Shown piece by piece: positions 49,807-64,000 of a stretch of DNA of 64,000 nt. The notes below the pieces were generated by a model. That model was given only the letters and a program-made list of their open reading frames with translations, made no database searches and was not told the origin of the DNA. Source of the DNA: Phorcus lineatus (lineage: Eukaryota; Mollusca; Gastropoda; Trochida; Trochidae); the NCBI GenBank assembly GCA_921293015.1, contig OV121081.1:29267158-29331157 (forward strand), read 5' to 3'. The position numbers were made by a program, and so were the translations under genes. Position 1 is the first letter of the stretch. Each line of letters starts with the position of its first letter.

Positions 49807-52800
49807 TTAGGATGACGACAAGTCGTACTGCGGTTCGATCCCCAACCCGCCGAACCTCTTCAGAAGACCTCCGGCTTTCTGTGGCAGTAATCTGGTGGCA
49901 AAAAGGGTATCAAATATTCTATAGGCAAAGAAATATAGCATGAGACACTGTAGCTTTCAAGGAGTTTCAAATCTTTTTTCTCTTAAGGAAGAAGGCAACC
50001 ACATAATATTATAACTAAGGTATTTCCCAGGGAGATTACCCCTGGGGTAAACCCCCCCTAGGAAAACAATTACAGGACATGTGCGTCAACCTTCAAAGTG
50101 AACCTCATACCTCTTACATTACTGACTCGCACCTCCCACCTGCGACAAAAGCCATAAGCCTATATGGTCGTTTAAGCCGGATGAATTAAAAATCAGTCGA
50201 GCCTTCTGACGTACCACTACTCCAAACAACGGAATATAGGCATTTAAAATTCGATTGACAGTTCCTTCCTCAAATCCGCTGCGTCCTTAACATTAAGAAT
50301 ACCATTTAAAACCTAACGTTCCTTCACAAAGAACCAAATTGATGTCTGAATTTGAAATTATTTACTTACACGCTAAGCTTCACCATGAAGCCGAGTCTTT
50401 TCGGTACATAGACAACCTTTTCTCCCCTCAGCATACCGTCTATGGATGCAAGGGCAGTCTCTTTGGGCGTCAAGGGTTTGTTGAATCTACAGACAGGAAC
50501 TTACGTACCTGAGCCACTACCGAAAATCCTCATAAACTGATTCTCCACTCTACATACACTATATCCTTACTCTGTATTTTCGCGAATGAATATAACAAAC
50601 AGTGGCAGATCCAGGGAATTTACGACAATAAAAATGTGCGATTTTCGATTGGATGAAAATGTAGATGGTCTCCGTTTTGCAAAATTTCCTGCAATGAGAA
50701 ATGTTGACCACTTGTAAAAGAGGGTATGTGGGAAAACATTACAGACAGGCCCGTTTCATCAATTTTAGGAGTGTGGGGTTGGGATGTTCAAAGTGATTGT
50801 TTTATAGGACTTTCACGCTTTTCATATAGGTTTTTGTGCTGCAGAAGCCATGTCTACTTTTATTTTAATTACTTTAATTTTGGCCCCTGTTACTTCGGAC
50901 AAGTGAGTAACAACTGTGGGACGAGAATGTTCTCTCCCATAACCTCTTTTATTTCGACCGGGGAGATGTGCGGTTTATGATGGACCTGTTGGATTTATAG
51001 AATGTATGGCATGTGTTTTCACAATTTGGACGAACCTGTCTTTGATATATTTGACGAGCCCGGTGTCGACAAATGCGGGACACACGACTGTTGTCTTCAC
51101 TCCTGTTTTCCCAAGAGCCTCTATCTCTTCACCCAATGCCTCCGTGAACCCGAACACAGCGTACTTTGACGAGCTGAACAGAAGTTGTTAAAAAATATAT
51201 AAAATAACAAGGAAAATTTTACATAATGTGCACATGGTTCTTTGATTATTGTGCAATATGATAAATATACTTGCACCGGTATTTGCACTGTTGAAGATAT
51301 ACGTCGAACATCAACACATTTATCAATGACAACTATTTACATATCAATGAGTATTTAACTTTGACGTATTATTATGAGCACAGGGTAGAGATAAGACAAA
51401 CATAAGCATTTTTTCGATTGTACAGCAATTGGGTTGCGCAACAGAGATATATAACCACTTTTCCCTCATCTCTGTTGCGCAAGCCTTTTGCGCTACAATT
51501 CGCTTATAGTATAAATATGACATGATACATGTTCAACTGAAAGTAAAGAAAGGGAAAAGTTGTTCTTCCAGTAGTAATGATACGACACTGAAATAAATGA
51601 AGGCAATATCATTTATTATTGATAACATTTCAAATCTTCTACCTGCCATTGTGGTAAAGAAAATCAGTTTACCATTCTTGGTAAAATCTTTTATAAATTA
51701 TGGATTTCGTCTTATCTTGTACCGAACCCCGATGACATTTCGCCATTACCAGACAACCTTCGGTCGATCAGAAGAAAACCTGGTTAACCGTTATTTCTTC
51801 GCCGCGCAACCCATTTGCGCTGCAGCCCGCCTGTGCTCTCACCTATAGTCGACAAGGAAGGCGAAGCCTGATTTAGCTGTTCCTGATGCTATGTTGAGGA
51901 TGTGTCCACAGTTGGCCTCTAGCATAGCTGGCAGGAACTCCTTCACCGTCTGTAAGAGTAAATTAACTATCACACGTCACTTCATCACAGGGACGTGTGT
52001 CCCTTAGAAATAGCTTTAGAAAGACATATGCCTATCGACCCTACCCTACTATATATTCGTTAATCGCTTGGAAATAACTGTAGAAAGACATATATATGCT
52101 AAAAGACATTAATTACCTTAGATGGATACATATACAGTCCATGGTTGAATAAAGATGTTGCTGAAACCCCTCGAAAAAGGATACACACTTTTCATTTCAA
52201 AATACATTATCTAGCCATGCGATCCAATTAAAAAAATCTAAATGGCTCTTAATTAGTCATGAATGTTAAATGATGGTTAGTGGGGACTGTGTTTATCATC
52301 CTTTAGTACTTGGTGTATAGAAAGCTCGCTGTGCGGGAATGAGGATTCGGGCGACATAGGCTTCGGACTACAACTGGGTACTTTGAAAGAGAAGAGAAAT
52401 GTAGGCCACCTGTAACATGGTTACGTGGGAAGAAATTACTTGAGTAACTTCTGTAGAGCGAGAGTGTATAACTAACGTCTCACCCAGAAGTGCGCCAGTG
52501 TGTTGACATCAAAGGTCCTCTTGATGTGTTTATCCTGCATATCCAGGAGGGGTCCCCCGTACAGGATGCCCGCATTGTTGACCAGCACGTGGACAGGGCC
52601 GACCTCACGCAGGACCTGTGTCGCCACCTTGTGAACGCTTTCTGCACTACTCACATCACACACGTACGTGTATACAGTGGCTCCCAGATCTCGGGCTTCA
52701 TCAGCCGTTTCTTCATTGTTTTTCTGTCACAAAAACAATAGCAGTTTATACACAAATAGACTAACATCACATTTTGTTTGAAAAGAAGCTAACCAAAAGG

Positions 52801-53689
52801 TTTCTTTATGTATATATAAAACACCCCCCTGGATTCATGCCTTCAAGTACACGACAAAAAGCTTTTGCTATTCTTATTACGATTGGGTTCTACAATGAGA
52901 ATATCAATGCTCTCGACATGTTCGCCGTTTTAAAAGCTGTAGTTCTAATCTCTTTGTTTTTGTTTATTACTTTGTTATTATGAGATTCAAAGTGCATAAA
53001 TGTTCCTGGTTATCAGTGTATTGTCTCAGTTTATTTAAATTGAAGTCTTTCAAATGTATAAAGGGGATTAATATAATTGGTATAGCAGGTTAAACCCATG
53101 GAATGATGCGTAAAATCAGTGTAAATAAATATATAAACGATATAGGCATGGTATTCGACGAGAACTCTCAAAAGTGTTATTACTTTCATTACCAAATTTA
53201 TTCATCAAAGGTAAGGTTAGGACGATCACTTTATGAACGTAATGTTAATATCGATGTCACCTTGCTTGAGCAGATCATATCATGGAGTTATTCTAAACAC
53301 ACATAAGGATGGTTTAAAGTGTTACTTCACAAAACTCATTAGTGAAATTTCAGATTTCATTTTCACTGTTAAATGTTAGTAATTAACCTTTTAACTAGAC
53401 GCATGGCTCAAAATCAGTTGTTGGGGTTAACCATTGATTAAACAGTGAGAGAACAAATATTTTACTAGTCTCGTACCTTGTTGATGTCCCAAAGTACGAG
53501 GGTAGCACCAAGACGAGCAAACTCCAATGAAAACTCCCGTCCGATGCCGTGACCGGCTCCTGTGATCAAAACCTTCTTACCACTTACATCTTCTCTGGCA
53601 GGCGGAAATATCCACCTGAAAATCGCCTCTATGTAATAGTAAACTATTGTAAGCCAGAGGACGAGGATTTCCCACAAGGACACCTTCAT
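49807..53689 (-). CDS. Short-chain dehydrogenase/reductase, SDR16C-like (6 coding exons)
   Basis: Minus-strand exons: 53689-53477, 52723-52484, 51949-51843, 51173-51036, 50486-50370 and 49891-49807. They join with GT-AG introns and matching phases into 299 residues, the usual SDR16C length. The start is the ATG at 53689; the frame extends upstream but only from a GTG. An N-terminal hydrophobic anchor (about 5-25) suggests ER or lipid-droplet attachment. The Rossmann fold is intact: TGAGHGIG (43-50), Asp68 after strand 2 (NAD preference), CDV, NNAG (120-123), Asn145, Ser173, and Tyr186/Lys190 in YSSSK. The catalytic Tyr codon lies at the exon 3/4 junction. Relatives are retinol dehydrogenases such as SDR16C5 and HSD17B11/13, which act on retinoids, steroids or other lipids; the substrate cannot be told here. 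It lies convergent to the GABA-B receptor gene and is a paralogue of the partial gene at 62091. The weakest junction is the exon 4 donor (GTTCGT). Confidence 0.93.
51434..51482. repeat. Perfect 15-bp inverted repeat in SDR intron 3
   Basis: TTGCGCAACAGAGAT at 51434-51448 and its exact complement at 51468-51482, with a 19-nt loop. TTGCGC-like words recur near 51485 and 51805-51820. Confidence 0.85.
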
Positions 53690-53699
53690 GTTGCACAAT

Positions 53700-53870
53700 G
53701 CAGTAGTTGCACGACAGCGTAGTTGCACGCCGGAGTTTACTATTATGTTAGTTGCAACTCAAAGTGGTTGCACATAGGAGACGTGGCACGCCGGAATGGT
53801 TGTAGCAGTAGTTGATCTTTAGATTAGTTGCACCCGGCAATGGTTGCAAGCTTCAGATTTAAGTTGCAAC
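53700..53870. repeat. GTTGCA-rich repeat just upstream of the SDR gene
   Basis: AGTTGCAC or GGTTGCA/AGTTGCA words occur about eight times in 170 bp, with CACGCCGGA twice. It covers the region immediately upstream of the SDR start codon at 53689, so it would be 5' UTR or promoter DNA. Confidence 0.7.
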
Positions 53871-54824
53871 CTCCTCTGTTTATCTGTGTGTTCACTCGGT
53901 ATGTGGCTTCGTATGAATAGATGAACTTATCAACGTTGATACCCTTACTGCACTCGGTATGTATGGTGTATAAAGGTACATTGTAGGGGGGCCTATATCT
54001 TTTTACCCAGGGTCTAGGTGATATGTGGAGTAGCGTTATCAGATATAACGTCTGGTCATAATTGCTGACTGCACAAATAAGTGATACAATATATAACGTA
54101 CCAGAGGTCAAAATGTTGGTTGCTTTAAGATCACTGTGACTTTTATTCATTTGAAATTCTTAAAAGAATAAATTCAGAATACAATAATAACTAAATTAGT
54201 GTGGTACGAGGAAATTGAAGAAATAGATGCAGGTTAAACTTCAGAGTTGAAGATTTACGGTAAAACAAAACCAATCGAAAAGTTTTCCTGATTTATCACT
54301 ATACCTTGTAATGACCAAATAAACAAATGTAAAATACCAAACTGACAGTATTTAAAAGCTGCCAGCAGAAAACTTTGGCATCAAATGATTCTCTTAACAA
54401 AAGCATCCCTCCCTATATGCATTACAACTTTTTCTCGATCATTTTTTCCCCACCAGTGATGCTTATATCAAACTGACTTAAGATAAGATTTACAGAAATT
54501 CAAAAAAGTTTAGCAAGTAGCCTAAATCATTCATTTTATGACCTTGAAAAATTACCCAAGGTTTCGAAATTCGAGTAGTGTATAAATGTTCCCTTAAATA
54601 ATTCTTGGGAGAAACTTTACATAAAATCGATTCATTGTCTTCAAAGAGATCGCATTGACTAGAACTTGTGTAGCATGTAAAGGATTAAAAATTCTCACAA
54701 AGTGACGTCGATCTGATGTCATCTGATGATAATTTTAACACTGTGCTTGAAACAATAATGTAAGACAGGCGTGTGACCAAGAGATACTTAGTTTTTCATC
54801 ACCACAAACAGAAAAACAAAAGTT

Positions 54825-55155
54825 GAAAGAATTGGTCCTGAGGATGTTCGAGCAGCAACGAATACCGCACAGACCTACAATCATGTTTGCACATGTCATT
54901 ACTCAGGATGAAACCTGGGTTAACAAATTTGATTCAGAAAAAAACGCCAAGCAGGCACTTGAATTACCCACGTTATGTCACCGAAACTAGAAACATATTT
55001 TCTTCGCCCTACCTAATTTCTAAATCTCAGGCTTCTTTCTCTTCCTGCGACTGAAAACAAAGCACCATGGCCATGCATTTGAGATCGACGAGAACGCCAT
55101 TACGACAATAGAGGAAGGGAAGAGAGAGTTCGTATCCCAGTATAGGAAATATTTT
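54825..55155 (+). pseudogene. Mariner-family transposase remnant
   Basis: HVITQDETWVNKFDSE (from about 54892) matches the block around the second catalytic Asp of mariner transposases (usually DETWV). About 130 bp on, in a different frame, FFLFLRLKTKHHGHAFEID (about 55031) and then TTIEEGKREFVSQYRKYF match the block after the third Asp (usually DFFLFPKLK). Between them lie stops and a frame change, so it is dead. It is the intact-domain counterpart of the kind of element deleted at 31072, but probably a different lineage. Identification is from memory of the family. Confidence 0.75.
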
Positions 55156-55780
55156 TGAACTTTTGTTCACAGCACACAATGTTAATCAGTCTGTGTACAA
55201 TTTCGGGGCACAGTGAAAACCTCATGGAAGTTGAGATACGTTTTGGTTGCAGGATGAACTCAGAAATAGCACCATCTATAGAGTCCATTTAACCATTAAA
55301 CAACAAAAGGGAAAAACATGTGACATGGAGATTATCTTTTCAATAAGTAATAGTAATATAAGTAATATTTTGATCACAAATAGATAATGAAAGACCTGAA
55401 TTTGTTGCATACCTATTTTAAAAGTTATTTTAACGTTATTGGTGATTCAAGTTATTTGACAAATTTCCATAATTGGCACTCCTTGCAAATTTTGTAAATT
55501 CATCGTACTAATATCAAGAGATGCTGACAAACTGTCAGCTATTGTGGAACTGTAGATTCAAAATCCTTGCAAAAGTGTTTTGGCTTACGCACAGGAAGCA
55601 GTCATCATACCTCAGACTAGCTACGAAATACCTTCCATCTATTAAATACAAATATTTTTAAACATTTTGAATACGAATTTAAATGTCTATATGAATTAGA
55701 TAACGCATTGCATTGGATAACCGAATATTGAAATGAAACAAAATTATTTTGTTTAAATTGTGGAATAGTCTCGACGAAAA
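55156..55780. other. Gene-free stretch
   Basis: AT-rich, with no supportable gene or bounded repeat. The minus-strand frame 55100-55288 overlaps the mariner remnant and is a shadow. Confidence 0.45.
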
Positions 55781-55794
55781 TATCTGTTACCCAG

Positions 55795-55950
55795 TAAGCG
55801 CCGGGTTTCGGCTTTCGTCATTTCCGGCGGCGTAAGCCGGATAGTGCACCGGATTACAAATCAAGTAAAGCCTCATTTCCGGCATAAAAATCACGTGATC
55901 TGAGGACAAACCAATAGGCAAGATGGCGATTTTTTAACAATTCACGCGCG
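55795..55950 (+). promoter_or_regulatory. TATA-less promoter-like block before the THAP gene
   Basis: TTTCCGGC occurs at about 55829 and 55880. The complementary GCCGGA and CCGGAT occur between, near 55845-55855. CACGTGATC is at about 55893 and AAGATGGCG at about 55920, 37 bp before the ATG. ETS-type (CCGGAA/T), E-box and YY1-type (AAGATGGCG) motifs together are typical of TATA-less promoters of broadly expressed animal genes. The block is GC-rich compared with its flanks. Confidence 0.5.
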
Positions 55951-56147
55951 AAAAATATGGGTGTAAAACGCTGCGCTTGGGGCTTATGTAACAGCGATTC
56001 TCGCATGTACCACAAGGCTTATATGTCTGGGGTAACTTTCCTTAGGTTTCCAAAGCCTAAAAGTTATCCTGAGAAATGCGATCGTTGGATTAGGGCTTGC
56101 TCACGTGCCGATGGCTTCGGAAGAGATCGCATCACAAAAGACACATA

Positions 56148-56750
56148 CAGTGCTGTCGGGTAAAGCTACGCACCTAAGAGATAGATGTTCATTCTTCGGG
56201 AAAAAATACAGTATATGGGATAAAAAAACCACTTCATTGTTAAAGTTTAGAGCTTCACTGATAATATTAATGTAAAATATTCATGCTGAAATGTGTTTGT
56301 CAGTGACACTGAAAGTTTTCCAACGACTACCCCCCTATTCCCGTAGGTGGTCACGTGTAGGCTAAAGATACGCACGCGGGGTTTGAATGCACCATACACT
56401 TCCAATATTATGATTTTGATAGATTTTTAAACTGTTTTCTGAAGTCTAGGTTAGGACAGACTGATAGTCGGATCAATACTTTGGTTTCCAATAACATTTG
56501 TTATGTGGGAAGGAAAACTGTTTGATTACGATATGTTTTCTAGGAATTTTGTCAGTTTTTACCGATGTTTTGCCAATAATCAACAATTAAGTCCTTTTTA
56601 CCTTTTCAAAAATGTCATGATTACTTTTAAATTGCCTTAAGATGCATAGACATAAATTTATTACAAGATAACACTCATCCTGCTTTACTAGGTTAAGTTT
56701 TGTGCGAGTGCGTATCTTTATCCGACGCGTATCTTTACCCGACACGGCTG
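56148..56750 (+). mobile_element. TA-flanked MITE inside the THAP coding exon (603 bp)
   Basis: The left end, CAGTGCTGTCGGGTAAAG, matches the complement of the right end, CAGCCGTGTCGGGTAAAG, and the pairing continues through TACGC. TA at 56146-56147 and 56751-56752 is the likely target duplication. Subterminal repeats of AAAGATACGC occur on both sides. It has no transposase frame, so it is non-autonomous; TA duplications point to a Tc1/mariner-type mobiliser. The left end contains GGGTAAAG, a possible splice donor. No acceptor at the right end gives back the THAP frame from that donor. Confidence 0.85.
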
Positions 56751-59092
56751 TATGTGTGCTCTTTGCATTTCGTTGGGAAGAACGGCCCAACTTTTGAAAA
56801 CCCAGATCCACTTCCCGCTATTGCAGGGCCTTCGGAAATAAAGTTGTCATCGCAGAACAAGCGTCAAGCACCGAAGGAACCACCTACTTCGACCACAACA
56901 AAGGCGAAGAGGAAGAAATTGGCGATTCCAAGTTCAACTTATGCTAATGTATGTATCTTAATTTTTATTAAACGTGCAAAATATTCTGTAGAATTTGAAA
57001 TCTAGGTATTACACCTTAGATTTTGATCTAAATAAATTTAAATCAACGTTTTAAACGAGTATAGATTTATTTATAAAGGTTGATTTTTATTCAGAATTCA
57101 TATGTCTCAAAATGAATTTGGTTGCCAATTCAACATTGAAATTACTTGTTTTTCTTATGTTGATTATTCACTTAAATTACCTTGTGTATTAATTGATATT
57201 TTCAGCCATCAATTGAAGATGACACAGGCCATGCTGAAGAAGGGGAAATAATGAACGACCACATGCAACAGGAATCTAAAGTAGCTTCCTTTTTTTTAAT
57301 ACAGTAATATGATAATTTTGAGCTAATGATACAGCCTAAATTCCAAATCAAATATTTAATATTGACTTGGTGTAAAAGTTCATAAGTAATTTGTTATGAA
57401 TACATTGATCACCATATTACAGTAAAATATGATCAGTTTAACATTAAACCAAAGAAAAGAGGGACACTTTAAGTAGGTAAAATACATTTCATTTTGTTTG
57501 CTAAATTATGTTTTAAGTTTGTCATGGAATTGTTAAGATCTGCTTTACAATATGTTTGCATTTCAAATCAAATACGTGATGTAATTCAATATTTCTACAG
57601 CATTCCTCTGAAGACCACAACTACAGTTGCCCACAACACTTGTCTACCCAGCCCCCCAACCTTGTGGCAGGTAAAGTCAAACTATTTTGAGTGACATCTG
57701 TCAAATAATTGATAGAAAGATGTTCAAATTGGAACACAGAATATTATCTATTTCTGATTTACAGATCTATTGTTTTGTTAATGATATATTTTTCCTTTAT
57801 TTTTCAGATAAAAGCACTGAGGGGACTGCAGAGGCAGAGATAGCCTCTAAGTCATCAGTTTGTAATGCCTCAACACAGACTTGCATTGATGCTACACACC
57901 TTGCTGACTATAGTGATCAGTGTTTACAAGATCCTCACCTCCTCAAGAGGCATTTGACGGTCAAAGACATCATGAAAGATGACATGTCATGTAAATTTTA
58001 CACTGGTGTGTAGTTTTCTTATTTGCATTTTACCTTATTAGTAATGAAAGAAATAGTAAAGAGACAGCGACAAAAGATTATTAATCAAATGTTATGACTT
58101 TAACAGATAGGTGGCTGATTGCATTAAATGGTCATTTGAGATCCAATTAACTTGTATAGTCATGCCAACTCTTAATATTTTACATTATGTATCATAATTA
58201 AGTTTCAGTAATTGGGGCATGCAAATTGTTCTACATTGTACAATTTTTCCTCCCTAATAGCAACTTGAACATTCGTATTGTTATACTGAACTGATAAAAA
58301 AAATAATTTTATTTTTCCCTAACAGTCAATAATTCTTGATGAAATGACGGTTTTGAAAATATTTGTCAATGTGTCCTTGACAATCAGACTTTGTCCCTTT
58401 GAATTTTATTTCTCAAAATATATTTCTTTCTCCTGTCTTACAGCTTTATTGTCACCATTCTTGAAAACAAACTCAGCATATCACCAGAATATATATTTTA
58501 CATTTTCTTTTATATTTCTTACACAATGTACTAGGTTGGTGATTATCTGCTAGATATTATGACTTTCATTTCGATCAGTTATGTATACTGATATTCTTAC
58601 TTTTCAGGTATTGCAAATCTACAGTTACTGATGCTTCTTTTCTCCTTGCTGAAAGATAAGGCAGAAAGACTGACACTGTGGAAGGGAGAAGAGACATTGG
58701 TGTGTACTAACGCTTGTGAAAATATTTGAAAATTACGAGGAAAGTAGATAAAGCGCCCATTTTTCACCTTAGAGGCAAGAGTCGAGTCTCATACAAAAAG
58801 ACACTTAAAGATGGGAGTCGTTATTTCTTGTTATGCGCTTAGCATTAGAATGATAGAACAGGGACATGAATGAGGCTGCATTGTGGCTGAATTGAACACG
58901 CTTACAAACAGTTATAAAACATACTTTTACTGAGGACAATAAAGCATTATTATTGGTAGCATTATTATGAAACTTTCCTTCAATATTCATTACTCCTAGC
59001 ATTGTTGTGTCATTGACCTAATGACATGATATGTCAGTTAAGTTCTAAATGATTTCAAAGCTTTGTGAGGTCATTTCTTAAGTACAAAATTT

Positions 59093-59218
59093 TTATGGAT
59101 AACAACTTCTGTAATCTGAGAGTGCGACATTTTCGACAGATTCTTGCATGCTTGAAAACGATACAAGTATCTGTGTCGAAACATCGCACTCTCAGATTAA
59201 AGAAGTTGTTATCCATAA
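59093..59218. repeat. Foldback element in THAP gene intron
   Basis: The left arm 59093-59140 and the right arm 59170-59218 pair over about 47 bp with few mismatches (core AATCTGAGAGTGCGA). GGTCATTTCTT occurs on both sides (about 59069 and 59267) and might be a distant direct repeat. Confidence 0.85.
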
Positions 59219-60326
59219 GTTTTTAAAACTTTTTTGCTTCCCAACTTCTAAATGCCACTCAAAGAAGGTCATTTCTTGATGACATAATAGCATAAGATTA
59301 TTTTATTGTAGCAGTATCTACAATGTACACATTGATTGTAGATTTTGCTCAGTTTCACCAAAGAAAAAATACTTCAGAGGCAGTTTTGATTTATATGATG
59401 ATGATGAATAAATTGTGTATAAAACATGTGCTATGTTGAAAATAATATATTCTTTTCACATTTCAGAATTTTTCAACACTGATGCATGATGGACAAGTTC
59501 GTTCACTGAAGACATTTGAAGGATTTCTTCTTACAATGGTTCGTCTTCGTCGCGGAATAGACACGGAGCATATAGCTGATTCTTTTGGCATTTCTTGTGT
59601 CACTGCTAGTAGATGCTTTCGCATTTGGTTAGAATTTATGTCCCGAGAGTTAACATTCTTGATCCAATGGCAAAATCAACAGCAAGTGAGGTCATTTGTT
59701 CCAAAATCATTTAAGCATTTCAAGAAGACAATTGCAGTAATTGATTGTGCAGAATTTTTTGTTCAGAAGCCTTCGCTATCTTGTCAAAGAAGAACATGGT
59801 CTCACCATAAAAGTCACAATACTTATAAAGCTCTCGTTTCCATATCTACCAACGGATCCTTCAACTTTGTATCTGACTTATGGACAGGATCAGTGTCAGA
59901 AAGACGCATTACACAAGAGTGTGGATTTCTCGACTTGTTAAGGAATGGTGATGATATTATAGCTGATCGTGGTTTTCTGATTCGAGATCTTGTGACTCTG
60001 AGAGGGGCTACCTTGAATATACCACCATATGCCCATGGAAAACAGCTCACCAAGGCAGCAGTTGCCAAGTCCAGACGCATAGCCAGTGCCCACATTCATG
60101 TTAAATGTGCCATAGCACGATTGAAAGAATTTAAGATTCTTCAAGGTATTTTGCCTTCAAAATCCATGGACGTATTGACTAGAATTGTTAGACTTTGTGC
60201 ACAGCTGTGTAACTTGGATGAGACCCTGGTGAAGTAATGATTATCGAAGATAAACAACCAGACGCAGTTAAAAGAAATTCTAATTCCTTATGTGCTGTCA
60301 TGATATTGTCATATGGCCAATTTGCA

Positions 60327-60332
60327 AATAAA
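60327..60332 (+). terminator. Candidate polyadenylation signal of the THAP gene
   Basis: AATAAA 90 bp after the stop codon. Confidence 0.5.
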
Positions 60333-60765
60333 TATGAAACTAAAGTGCCGTTTTTCACAAATGTGCATTAGATGAGCACAAACCAAAAGGTGTGAACATG
60401 ATGAAGTTAATGCAACATTACAGTTGGTACATGTCACTATGAAAATTCAATAACTTTGAGGGGATAAATCATGTCCAGGTTGAATGTTCTTGCAAATGCA
60501 AAACAATTGTGAAACGCCTGCTATTTCTTGAGCTATCTCTATACGTAGATAAGTTAGATGCAAATAAAAAGGCCATTATATATAATGTCTCAAGTTCAAA
60601 TATTTGAAAAAAGTTTGGGCGAAACATAATATTTGTAAAGAAAAAACTCAATCCTTAGAGTCATGGCTTTTAAGTTGTCCGGATTAAAAAGACTCCTACA
60701 CTGTGTCAAATCATGGTTGGATTAAATGACCAGAGAGCACTAATCAATGTTGTATATTCCCTGCT

Positions 60766-61235
60766 GATCCATTCTCTCCCCATAGAGATAGCTCCATCAT
60801 TAATTCCTATACAACCTCTGTTCTAATATGAGCTCTCCTTGAGCTCTAGGCAGATTCTCCTGGCGGCAAAACATTGCAACATAACTACCTTGCAATGAGC
60901 CAATGAAAACGCTCCATGCATGGTTAACATATTTGTTATCACACAGGTCTATGCAATGATGCAGTCGCTAAATGAGTCATTTACAGAGCACAAATTGCCT
61001 CTGAAGGCAAACTTAAATAAATTTAGGGTCAGCTCCATTTTCTCCCAAAAGAGATGGCACTGTCATTAATACCTATACAAAAGTTTCTGGGCCTAGAAAT
61101 GTAGAAACCTGATTGACTGCAATCAAAGTTAGTTGTGCAATCAGCAACGCCGTTTCAAAGGTTATAATTCAAATTGCCTAAGTTATTTCTGTAAGCTTTC
61201 GGAAAGCTATACTTTATACGAATATATGCACCTTG
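60766..61235 (+). repeat. Dispersed repeat family R1, copy 3 (compound)
   Basis: 60766-60990 matches 34915-35110 in order (AGATAGCTCC, CTGGCGGCAAAACATTGCAAC, GCCAATGAAAACGCT, CTATGCAATGATGCAGTCGCT). A second start of the same repeat follows at about 61038 (TTCTCCCAAAAGAGATGGCACTGTCATTAATACC). From about 61125 to 61220 the text is the inverse of the right part of copy 2 (complement of GAAACGGCGTTGCTGATTGC and AGCTTTCCGAAAGC). So this is two nested or joined copies. Confidence 0.7.
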
Positions 61236-61239
61236 CGCT

Positions 61240-62090
61240 TTGAAACCACTTTACAAAACACATACGCCTCATTTATAAACTGCATCACTGCATAGTCATG
61301 ACTGCCAGAAAATTGAGAAGAGCTTTTATATTATAACAGAGGTTGTTTAGGAATTGATGCAGAGCCAGAATGCTCGACAAAAGATTCTAAAAAGTTTACT
61401 GCCTTTGGTAAGCCGTAAAAGGAACTTAGAACATAAGGCTTTGCCAAAAACAACTTTATTTAAAAATTCATACAAAATTTTTTTTTGCTATGTCAAGCAA
61501 AGAAATAAACCATTATGGATTATGATTGAGCAGAAAAGTAAGCGCTTTAAGTTAAATGACATTGAATGAAACTAGTTATTCACATAAAATTTTCAACCGT
61601 AACAATTATATTGTTAATGAGTCAAGTCCTCTATCTGACATGGCTTTTTGTAAGGTAATGTCGTATGCCAACGCAACCCATTTAACCTTGAGATCAAGCA
61701 GCCATGAAATAGTTCACCCGTCCAGAGATGAACTTCATCCTTTGTTGTTGAACTTAAACTCATACTGGTCAACTGAGTTAGGCTCTACCAGAAGATTTCA
61801 GTGACATCTAATAGTTTACTTTTAGAGACAGGGTGACATAAGGATGGTGTCTCTTACTAAATGCCTTTTTCCATAAAAGAAATGTAACAATTGAAAGACG
61901 AAAAACAATCATTTGAATGACAATGGATGAAAATGATGACGACAAGAATGATAAAAATAAATAATTACAAGGCATTTCATCTCAATGATAGAATCATACA
62001 GATGATTAAGAAACCTCAATGAAGTAGCATGTAAATTATGATACAAGGCCCATAGGTGTACAACAAACTGGAACGTACAACAAAGCCTGA
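61240..62090. other. Gene-free stretch downstream of the second SDR gene
   Basis: The short frames at 61354-61804 (plus) are not recognisable and have the local AT-rich composition. This should include the 3' UTR of the minus-strand SDR gene ending at 62091. Confidence 0.45.
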
Positions 62091-62550
62091 TTACTTGTCT
62101 TTTGGGTTGTATTGAGGGTCGATTCCCAAACCTCCAAACTTCTTCAAGAGGGGAGCACATTTGGCTGGCATCAACCTAGAAAAAAAATTTGAGGGATGAG
62201 TTATTTAGATTGAAATACTGATGAACATTATACAAAAATATATATTGTACTTGTGAATCGATACTAGGATACATCAGATTCAATGATAGTACAACTTACT
62301 TACATTGCATATAACCACAATTGTGTATTTCTAGCCCAGAAATTGCACTTGTAACAGAGGAAACTTTGGAAGACTTACCTTTACAAGGAGAGAATAGCTG
62401 AACCTTGGCGCTTGATAAGTTTGAGAGACTTACCCCTGTATTTTCTCCAGGAACCAGAGTCTTCGAGGAATGAGAACAACCTTCTCTCCCCTCAGCATTC
62501 CATCTATAGCGGCTAGTGCCGTCTCTTTGGGTGTCAGCAGTGGGCTGAAC
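62091..62550 (-). CDS. Second SDR16C-like dehydrogenase, last two coding exons (partial)
   Basis: Minus-strand exons 62550-62434 (117 nt) and 62175-62091 (85 nt, ending TAA) have exactly the lengths and phases of the last two exons of the complete SDR gene at 49807-53689. They encode [39 protein letters not shown], and then LMPAKCAPLLKKFGGLGID with tail PQYNPKDK. This is the C-terminal helix and tail of the SDR16C fold. The catalytic exons must lie to the right of the window; I found none in 62551-64000. It is a tandem paralogue, differing from the first gene at many residues, so the duplication is not recent. Confidence 0.9.
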
Positions 62551-62572
62551 CTGGGACACAGTGATATATATA

Positions 62573-62722
62573 GACAATAACTAACGAGTGACGGGGAATG
62601 ACAGATTATCTTTCCCGAGTTATAATAATTTCGTAATTCTCGAGCCTTGGCGAGAGAATTACACAATTAATATAACGAGGGAAAGATAATCTGTCATTCC
62701 CGTCACGAGTTGGTTATTGTTT
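62573..62722. repeat. Foldback element in intron of the second SDR gene
   Basis: The left arm CGAGTGACGGGGAATGACAGATTATCTTTCCC pairs with the right arm GGGAAAGATAATCTGTCATTCCCGTCACGAGT. Weaker pairing extends outwards (GACAATAACTAA with TTGGTTATTGTT). An inner palindrome GTAATTCTCGAGCC/GGCGAGAGAATTAC forms the tip. It starts only about 20 bp from the splice acceptor at 62551. Confidence 0.9.
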
Positions 62723-62724
62723 AT

Positions 62725-63520
62725 ATTACCTATATGATTTTAAAAATATTGAAACTCGAATATGATAGAAATAATCGTTCCTCTTTAAAGGATTAGGGTT
62801 GCGAATTTCAAAATTCATACGCGTGTGCTGTGGTTTTGCTTGACACTTACCTACGCACGGCTAAGTTGTAATTTGTGAAAAAGTTTCAAAATAATAGCTA
62901 AAAGTAGTTATTTTTGAACGTTTATTATAAACGTTTATTATTTTCATAACCGTCATTCAAAATAATTACATTTCACAGTTTTGTGTTAATTTGAAGAGGT
63001 CAGCGACGCACTACAGTAATACTACAAGACGGCTGAACTCGTGACGTAACTTATGACACTGTGACGTCATAGCCGCTCGTGTCTATGACGTCATTACGTT
63101 AGAACGGAACCAGGCGCTTCTTCGCGACTGTTAGCGTGATGAAGAACTGATTCAATAATTGCTAATTTCTATGCTTTCGTGCAATGTGGCAGGCTTATTT
63201 CACGTTGTTTGTGGCGGCACATCTGAGAAATGTCGACTGGCAACTACATGGAATAAATAAACATTGTTAAAATTCAGTCTAAGGGTAAACAAATTACCAG
63301 TCGGGACAAGTTTGAAAGATGATTGAAATAGTCCCGGCACTACGTTCTTTTTAATTGGTTCACAACAACCAATCAAATGCTAAGAAAATGTGTAACTCCC
63401 GTGTGACTTACAGGAAAAATATTACCCTGTGTCCATCTTCCCATATGGGTAATATAATGGGGTAACCAACAGACAACCAATCTAACACGGAAGAAGGGTG
63501 CTTGTCTCCCCTTTACCAGA
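62725..63520. other. Non-coding stretch with CRE-like sites
   Basis: No exon of the second SDR gene could be found here. TGACGTCA occurs at 63062-63069 and 63085-63092, with GTGACGTAAC just before at about 63041. It is either intronic or in the upstream part of that gene. Confidence 0.45.
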
Positions 63521-63968
63521 TTAAAGAGCCACTCCGTGATTTTCATAACATGTTATGTACCTTTGATACGAACCTTAATGTCATATGTGGTGATATAAAA
63601 TCAAAACATCTTAACTTTTCATGTCCAAAAGACATATATATGACAAATACTGGTTTTGCATGAAAATCTAAAAACAGCCTTATAAATGCACAGAGGTGTA
63701 GATATCACGTCCAATATACATGGATACTAGATATAACCAAACAAACACTATCAACTAACTGCCCTCCTGGCTGCTTTAGATAAGTCTCCAAAATTACGTT
63801 TGACTATTTGACGGGCGCCACTGTCCGGTTTTCGATCATAATTGCGACTTACTACCTTCATATTGTCACTGTAAAAAACCAATAAGCTTTAAAATATGTC
63901 TTTAGGTAGATACTTCGCGATCAAATAGTTTGGCATATATGACTCCAACTCACGGAGTGGCTCTTTAA
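63521..63968 (-). mobile_element. TTAA-flanked MITE, copy 3 (448 bp), inverted
   Basis: Starts TTAAAGAGCCACTCCGTGAT and ends ACTCACGGAGTGGCTCTTTAA. Read on the minus strand, its landmarks follow the order of copies 1 and 2 (ATATATGCCAAACTA, TTTGATCGCGAAGTATC, CAATTATGATCGAAAACC, GGACAGTGGCGC). It has small deletions relative to copy 1. Confidence 0.95.
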
Positions 63969-64000
63969 CTGTGAATGTAATACTTGCAATCTCAGTGGCG

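Follow-up and report, generated by a model that had tools for sequence, protein, structure and literature searches.

A TA-flanked MITE within the THAP exon of an ISL2EU-type transposase copy in the gastropod Phorcus lineatus

Transposons of the ISL2EU type (PHIS superfamily) combine THAP, HTH and DDE domains and duplicate AT within A|AT|T on insertion, and most candidate autonomous elements also carry a YqaJ partner (PMC4482050). Tc1/mariner-type MITEs (Stowaway-like and Tc1-related) are non-coding elements of high copy number with short inverted ends and a TA duplication. PMC9635669 gives CAYATATRTG as the Tc1 target consensus, and PMC4561436 describes the footprints that Stowaway-like MITEs and mariner elements leave on excision. 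Introners carrying terminal inverted repeats are known from other eukaryotes, some of them adding codons (PMC9860276). PMC10027918 reports recruited factors among THAP genes that have DDE_Tnp_4 parts.

Here we analysed a 64,000-nt stretch of Phorcus lineatus DNA (contig OV121081.1), called the window below, in which a THAP coding exon is split by a short element. All coordinates without a locus name are positions in the window. The reading we prefer, with a probability of about 0.88, is that a young Tc1/mariner-type TA MITE, moved in trans, inserted in exon 1 of a degenerate ISL2EU-type copy and truncated its protein, which is an ordinary case of one transposon inserting in another.

The insertion in exon 1 and its reading frame

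Coding exon 1 opens with the ATG at 55957, and a splice donor follows directly after 56948. Its first part (55957..56145, + strand) comprises 63 codons of N-terminal THAP, with a weak Pfam match, and its second part (56751..56948, + strand), placed by frame reading and by paralogues, starts from Tyr64 and holds the CSLH of the THAP motif. Between them lies the non-autonomous MITE (56148..56750, + strand), with the ends CAGTGCTGTCGGGTAAAG and, inverted, CAGCCGTGTCGGGTAAAG, and a maximal stop-free stretch of 61 codons. The two copies of the target-site duplication can be read directly, the left TA at 56146..56147 and the right TA at 56751..56752 (neither assigned to a strand), and exactly 603 bp lie between them, the size given in the first-pass annotation.

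Uninterrupted translation from the ATG yields 64 native residues (...KDTY), then S-A-V-G and a stop, so the four extra codons described earlier were found again. When 605 nt (the MITE and one TA) are removed, exon 1 becomes 387 nt, or 129 codons in phase 0, joins the next exon, and forms with the five downstream exons a single 530-codon frame over six exons with its stop at 60235-60237. The earlier statements that removal restores both the frame and the splice phase, and that the rest of the gene is open, therefore held. Judged from the truncated frame, loss of function at the protein level would be expected.

The first-pass annotation had offered a second outcome, in which splicing takes the MITE out of the transcript, making it a new, introner-like intron. 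Like introners, the window MITE is a short repeated element in a coding exon, and the codon-adding introners with terminal inverted repeats cited above provide a precedent. In addition, the frame stays open with 104 in-frame pairs of GT-AG or GC-AG sites. On a generic splice-site matrix not trained on this species, the highest sums are 5.8 with a GC donor and 2.1 with a GT donor, values that lie between the 0.6 and 13.8 that bound the gene's own five inferred introns. However, the best-scoring pairs end at 56826 and so lose the CSLH part of THAP, and both sides of the THAP break are kept in just 3 of the 104 pairs, whose sums are -7.3, -13.0 and -16.4. Exact restoration of the exon is possible in three registers, with the boundaries TA..TG, AC..GT and CA..TA. 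None of these is GT-AG, GC-AG or AT-AC, and by the bases at the junctions the element cannot be a precisely spliced intron of any of the latter three types. In contrast to introners, the window MITE thus lacks canonical exon-restoring boundaries, and its in-frame pairs that keep THAP score poorly. We consider splicing of the element very improbable, and this part of the earlier proposal was abandoned.

The empty target, ACACATATGTGT (ACACA-TA-TGTGT), has perfect palindromic symmetry around its central TA and includes CAYATATRTG. Across 23 copies of the element the base preference is weak, with A just before TA in 13 of 23 and T as the third base after TA in 15 of 23. All five palindromic pairs are present in the window target and four in that of L002, while the other 21 copies have 0-3. 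The Tc1 consensus is thus present in the window target, but a Tc1 preference is not borne out family-wide, since a clear palindrome is seen in the window and L002 only.

A family of near-identical elements

The two ends of the MITE match at 20 of 24 positions over the first 24 bases, as terminal inverted repeats. The 20-base 5' end, TACAGTGCTGTCGGGTAAAG, has 242 exact copies in the genome (123 forward and 119 reverse), and a reversed control pattern has 0. A genome search for further copies, proposed in the first-pass annotation, was run with a query without the element's first 52 bases, and 40 of 985 candidates were scored; among these best 40 of 985, the window copy and 39 others are near full-length and 96-100% identical over the queried part. 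With 242 exact 5' ends, no coding capacity and near-identical copies elsewhere, the earlier description of the element as a MITE is well supported.

We aligned 27 of the 39 other near full-length copies (L002-L028). Both ends are intact and TA stands on both sides in 22 of 27, so the ends of the element do recur at other TA sites, with the same TA/TA flanks as in the window. The remaining copies are L018, which has TT instead of TA on both sides, and L006, L014, L026 and L028, which are altered or cut at an end. A further locus, L071, consists of two MITEs head to head, each with TA on both sides. One of the aligned copies, L002, lies about 50 kb from a paralogue of the window gene (L060, below) and was considered as an event shared with the window; it was rejected, its flanks differing from those of the window. 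As a separate observation, a tandem GCGTATCTTTAYCCGAC occupies 56710-56743 of the window MITE, with an inverted partial copy near 56360, and these may be repeated transposase-binding sites.

The mobilising transposase would be of Tc1/mariner type, as judged from the TA and the end sequence only; CAGTGCTG resembles the Tc1 end. The window MITE shares with Tc1/mariner-type MITEs the TA duplication, the short inverted ends, the non-coding interior and the high copy number, but differs from them in that no autonomous partner was found at the five loci searched for one, namely the head-to-head pair L071 and L072-L075 (4 of the 11 loci where the 20-base end is followed by a variant base). A Pfam scan of seven open stretches in L071-L074 gave no transposase family. 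L072-L075 carry relatives of the MITE that are 70-85% identical to it. Two of these, L074 (C41:1512647-1514300) and L075 (C41:2699637-2701300), are each 70.5% identical to the MITE and have identical first 60 bases, flank included, which suggests a duplicated segment. In L072, an open stretch (1284-1649, + strand) within about 0.8 kb of the MITE relative matches the CAF1 family of ribonucleases (PF04857, 3.4e-20).

The divergence of the 28 copies from the majority sequence of the 27 ranges from 0.3 to 2.7%. Relative to the majority, the window MITE carries 3 substitutions and 2 inserted bases, every one of them also present in L002 and L003. Since it has no private difference from its subfamily, we infer that the insertion is very recent, in line with one of the alternatives raised earlier. 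If the 603 bp are taken as unchanged since insertion, divergence per site is at most 0.5% (95% upper bound), or about 2% of the intron branch length of the gene (about 0.25 per site). An insertion that is still polymorphic, with an empty other allele, would be compatible with the preferred reading, and we see the chances as even: the lack of private mutations in the window MITE and the youth of the family speak for it, but the assembly shows one allele, and no second allele was seen in 74 contigs, the next best scored exon 6 match being 84% identical.

The host copy and its uninterrupted paralogues

Downstream of the insertion, all on the + strand, coding exons 2 (57206..57280), 3 (57601..57670), 4 (57808..58005) and 5 (58608..58699) were placed by the joined frame and the introns of paralogues, and exon 6 (59467..60237), which includes the stop, carries HTH_Tnp_4 and DDE_Tnp_4 with a Lys at the third catalytic acid. 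Exon 6 matches DDE_Tnp_4 at 2.9e-39 and HTH_Tnp_4 at 2e-10, both above the Pfam cut-off, and a PHROGs search with this exon gave no match. The first THAP piece, cut by the MITE, reaches an E of 0.00048 and 21.3 bits against Pfam THAP, under the gathering score of 23.9, and the uncut exon 1 of two paralogues, L059 and L060, scores above it (37.2 and 34.1 bits). Within intron 5 there is an inverted repeat (59080-59231) with arms of 53 nt at 83%.

Two relatives in the genome, L062 and L063, are ISL2EU-like elements of about 5.8 kb with a YqaJ ORF on the opposite strand. Their common sequence spans TAAT-AG to CT-ATTA between unrelated flanks, with an apparent AT duplication within A|AT|T, and they deviate from ISL2EU in ends that start AG, while GG is usual. 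Because of the domain match and because L062 and L063 fit the ISL2EU layout, the "THAP gene" can be assigned to a transposon family; by its THAP, HTH_Tnp_4 and DDE_Tnp_4 domains it is an ISL2EU-type transposase. The window copy itself departs from described ISL2EU elements, as it has lost the third catalytic acid, and neither YqaJ nor element ends were found with it.

For YqaJ, tblastn with an ORF that is YqaJ by Pfam gave no match within the 64-kb window, and gave matches in L059, L060 (partial), L061, L064, L065, L066 and L068, with none in L067. Transposon ends were sought in 50000-55956 and 60238-64000, where no convincing pair was seen (the longest is 15 nt and AT-rich). DNA homology to L059 has its outer limits at 55877..60770 (+ strand) and consists of five pieces, the MITE being a break within exon 1. 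It begins 45 nt inside the left end of L059 and ends at 60770, so that the window copy lacks the left 45 nt of L059 and the greater part of its YqaJ side.

Several other features were noted around the gene. A short open stretch at 54751-54987 (+ strand) has no Pfam match and contains HVITQDETWVNKFDSE, which resembles the mariner transposase motif. Just beyond the end of the L059 homology, 60798-61359 holds MITE-like inverted repeat pairs (32 nt at 91% and 46 nt at 74%). At 62594-62701 there is a hairpin whose 53-nt arms (87%) are separated by 2 nt, and inverted ends of 22 nt (95%) with 404 nt between them, perhaps another small element, lie at 63521-63968.

When exon 6 was used as a query against the same genome, 148 of 316 candidates were scored as matches, one of them being exon 6 itself, and the best other scored matches are 84%, 83% and 68% identical. 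Ten gene regions (L059-L068) were compared around the MITE position. In L059 and L060, the sequences homologous to the two flanks of the MITE run on without interruption, with the alignment break at TA; exon 1 reads GACACTTACGTGTGC in L059 and GACACTTATGTGTGC in L060. Both have complete 530-codon frames and five introns at the same places as the window gene. These uninterrupted copies with the break at TA, together with all five shared intron positions, argue that the observation is not a product of chance. L061 is also uninterrupted at this position, the homology of L062-L066 spans it, L067 matches a short piece only and L068 has no match there. Among the copies examined, the MITE insertion is specific to the window copy.

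Decay, selection and the order of events

The catalytic triad reads D, D, K in the window copy, and D, D, E in all 29 relatives examined (of 147 other scored matches). Among near-invariant DDE columns, 8 of 61 are changed in the window against 0-2 of 57-58 in ten other copies (pooled Fisher p 6e-5), and the same test with the nine closest copies gives 13 of 116 against 0-6 of 103-109 (pooled Fisher p 5e-6); since the columns are common to the rows, these pooled values are a guide only. The ratio of nonsynonymous to synonymous changes in the DDE part is 31:19 on the window branch versus 9:26 on the other branches together (p 0.0018). Because of the Lys in place of the catalytic Glu, the lack of a YqaJ match in the window and the lack of convincing ends, the host copy was very probably no longer able to transpose by the time the MITE arrived. 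At most about 8 coding changes are expected since the arrival of the MITE, so most of the decay of the host copy should be older than the insertion, and from its relative age the catalytic Lys likely preceded it as well. The earlier claim that the element "kills the gene" therefore stands for the frame, which is truncated, but not for an active gene: the host copy being already transposition-defective, the MITE mainly ended a frame that was very probably unable to support transposition.

The coding sequence was also examined with respect to a different history, in which an exapted, non-catalytic host THAP gene was under selection until a recent knock-out by the MITE, perhaps on one haplotype only. 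The MITE aside, the 530 codons contain no stop or frameshift, all splice sites are kept, and three length differences from the paralogues are each a multiple of three. Branch omega is 0.34 (bootstrap 0.24-0.52), compared with 0.25 for the paralogue pair, and the window value is the higher one in 266 of 300 resamplings. In simulation, the probability of no stop is 0.22, 0.05 and 0.02 for an assumed 40, 80 and 120 neutral changes. Over the first 90 residues, the window copy has changes in 2 of 43 invariant columns (positions 87 and 89) against 0-2 of 33-43 in other copies, and replacements are not in excess (6:5 versus 9:4, p 0.68). Taken at the codon level, the intact frame and the omega of 0.34 are more conserved than expected for a long-dead copy. 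However, the branch omega includes the time as an active transposon, when selection also acts, and selection on the transposon before it became immobile would leave the same mark as exaptation. The DDE part is relaxed on the window branch, as the 31:19 ratio indicates, and the contrast between THAP and DDE is not significant (2/43 versus 13/116, p 0.36). We therefore regard an exapted gene as unlikely. Still more doubtful is the fuller version, a host-recruited non-catalytic THAP-DDE protein that was freed of its transposon ends, held under coding selection, and is now being lost through a segregating MITE; if it were true, intact and MITE alleles of a recruited THAP-DDE protein could be compared in living populations.

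Under the preferred reading of a transposon inserted in a transposon, for which the exact empty site in two paralogues, the exact ends, the TA duplication, the abundance of the family and the identity of its sequences were observed, a young non-autonomous, TA-inserting MITE would have been moved in trans by a transposase not found at the loci examined. It would have landed in exon 1 of a degenerate ISL2EU-type copy, at the palindrome ACACA-TA-TGTGT, and duplicated the TA. The predicted protein would then stop inside the THAP domain, its 64 native residues being followed by 4 foreign ones.

In summary, the locus is a clean and roughly datable instance in which one DNA transposon has disrupted a second, and paralogues preserve the empty site. 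It also calls for caution, in that THAP-DDE genes should not be called host genes before the catalytic residues and the paralogues have been checked. Given its youth and abundance, the MITE family may still be mobile and could serve as a marker in this species.
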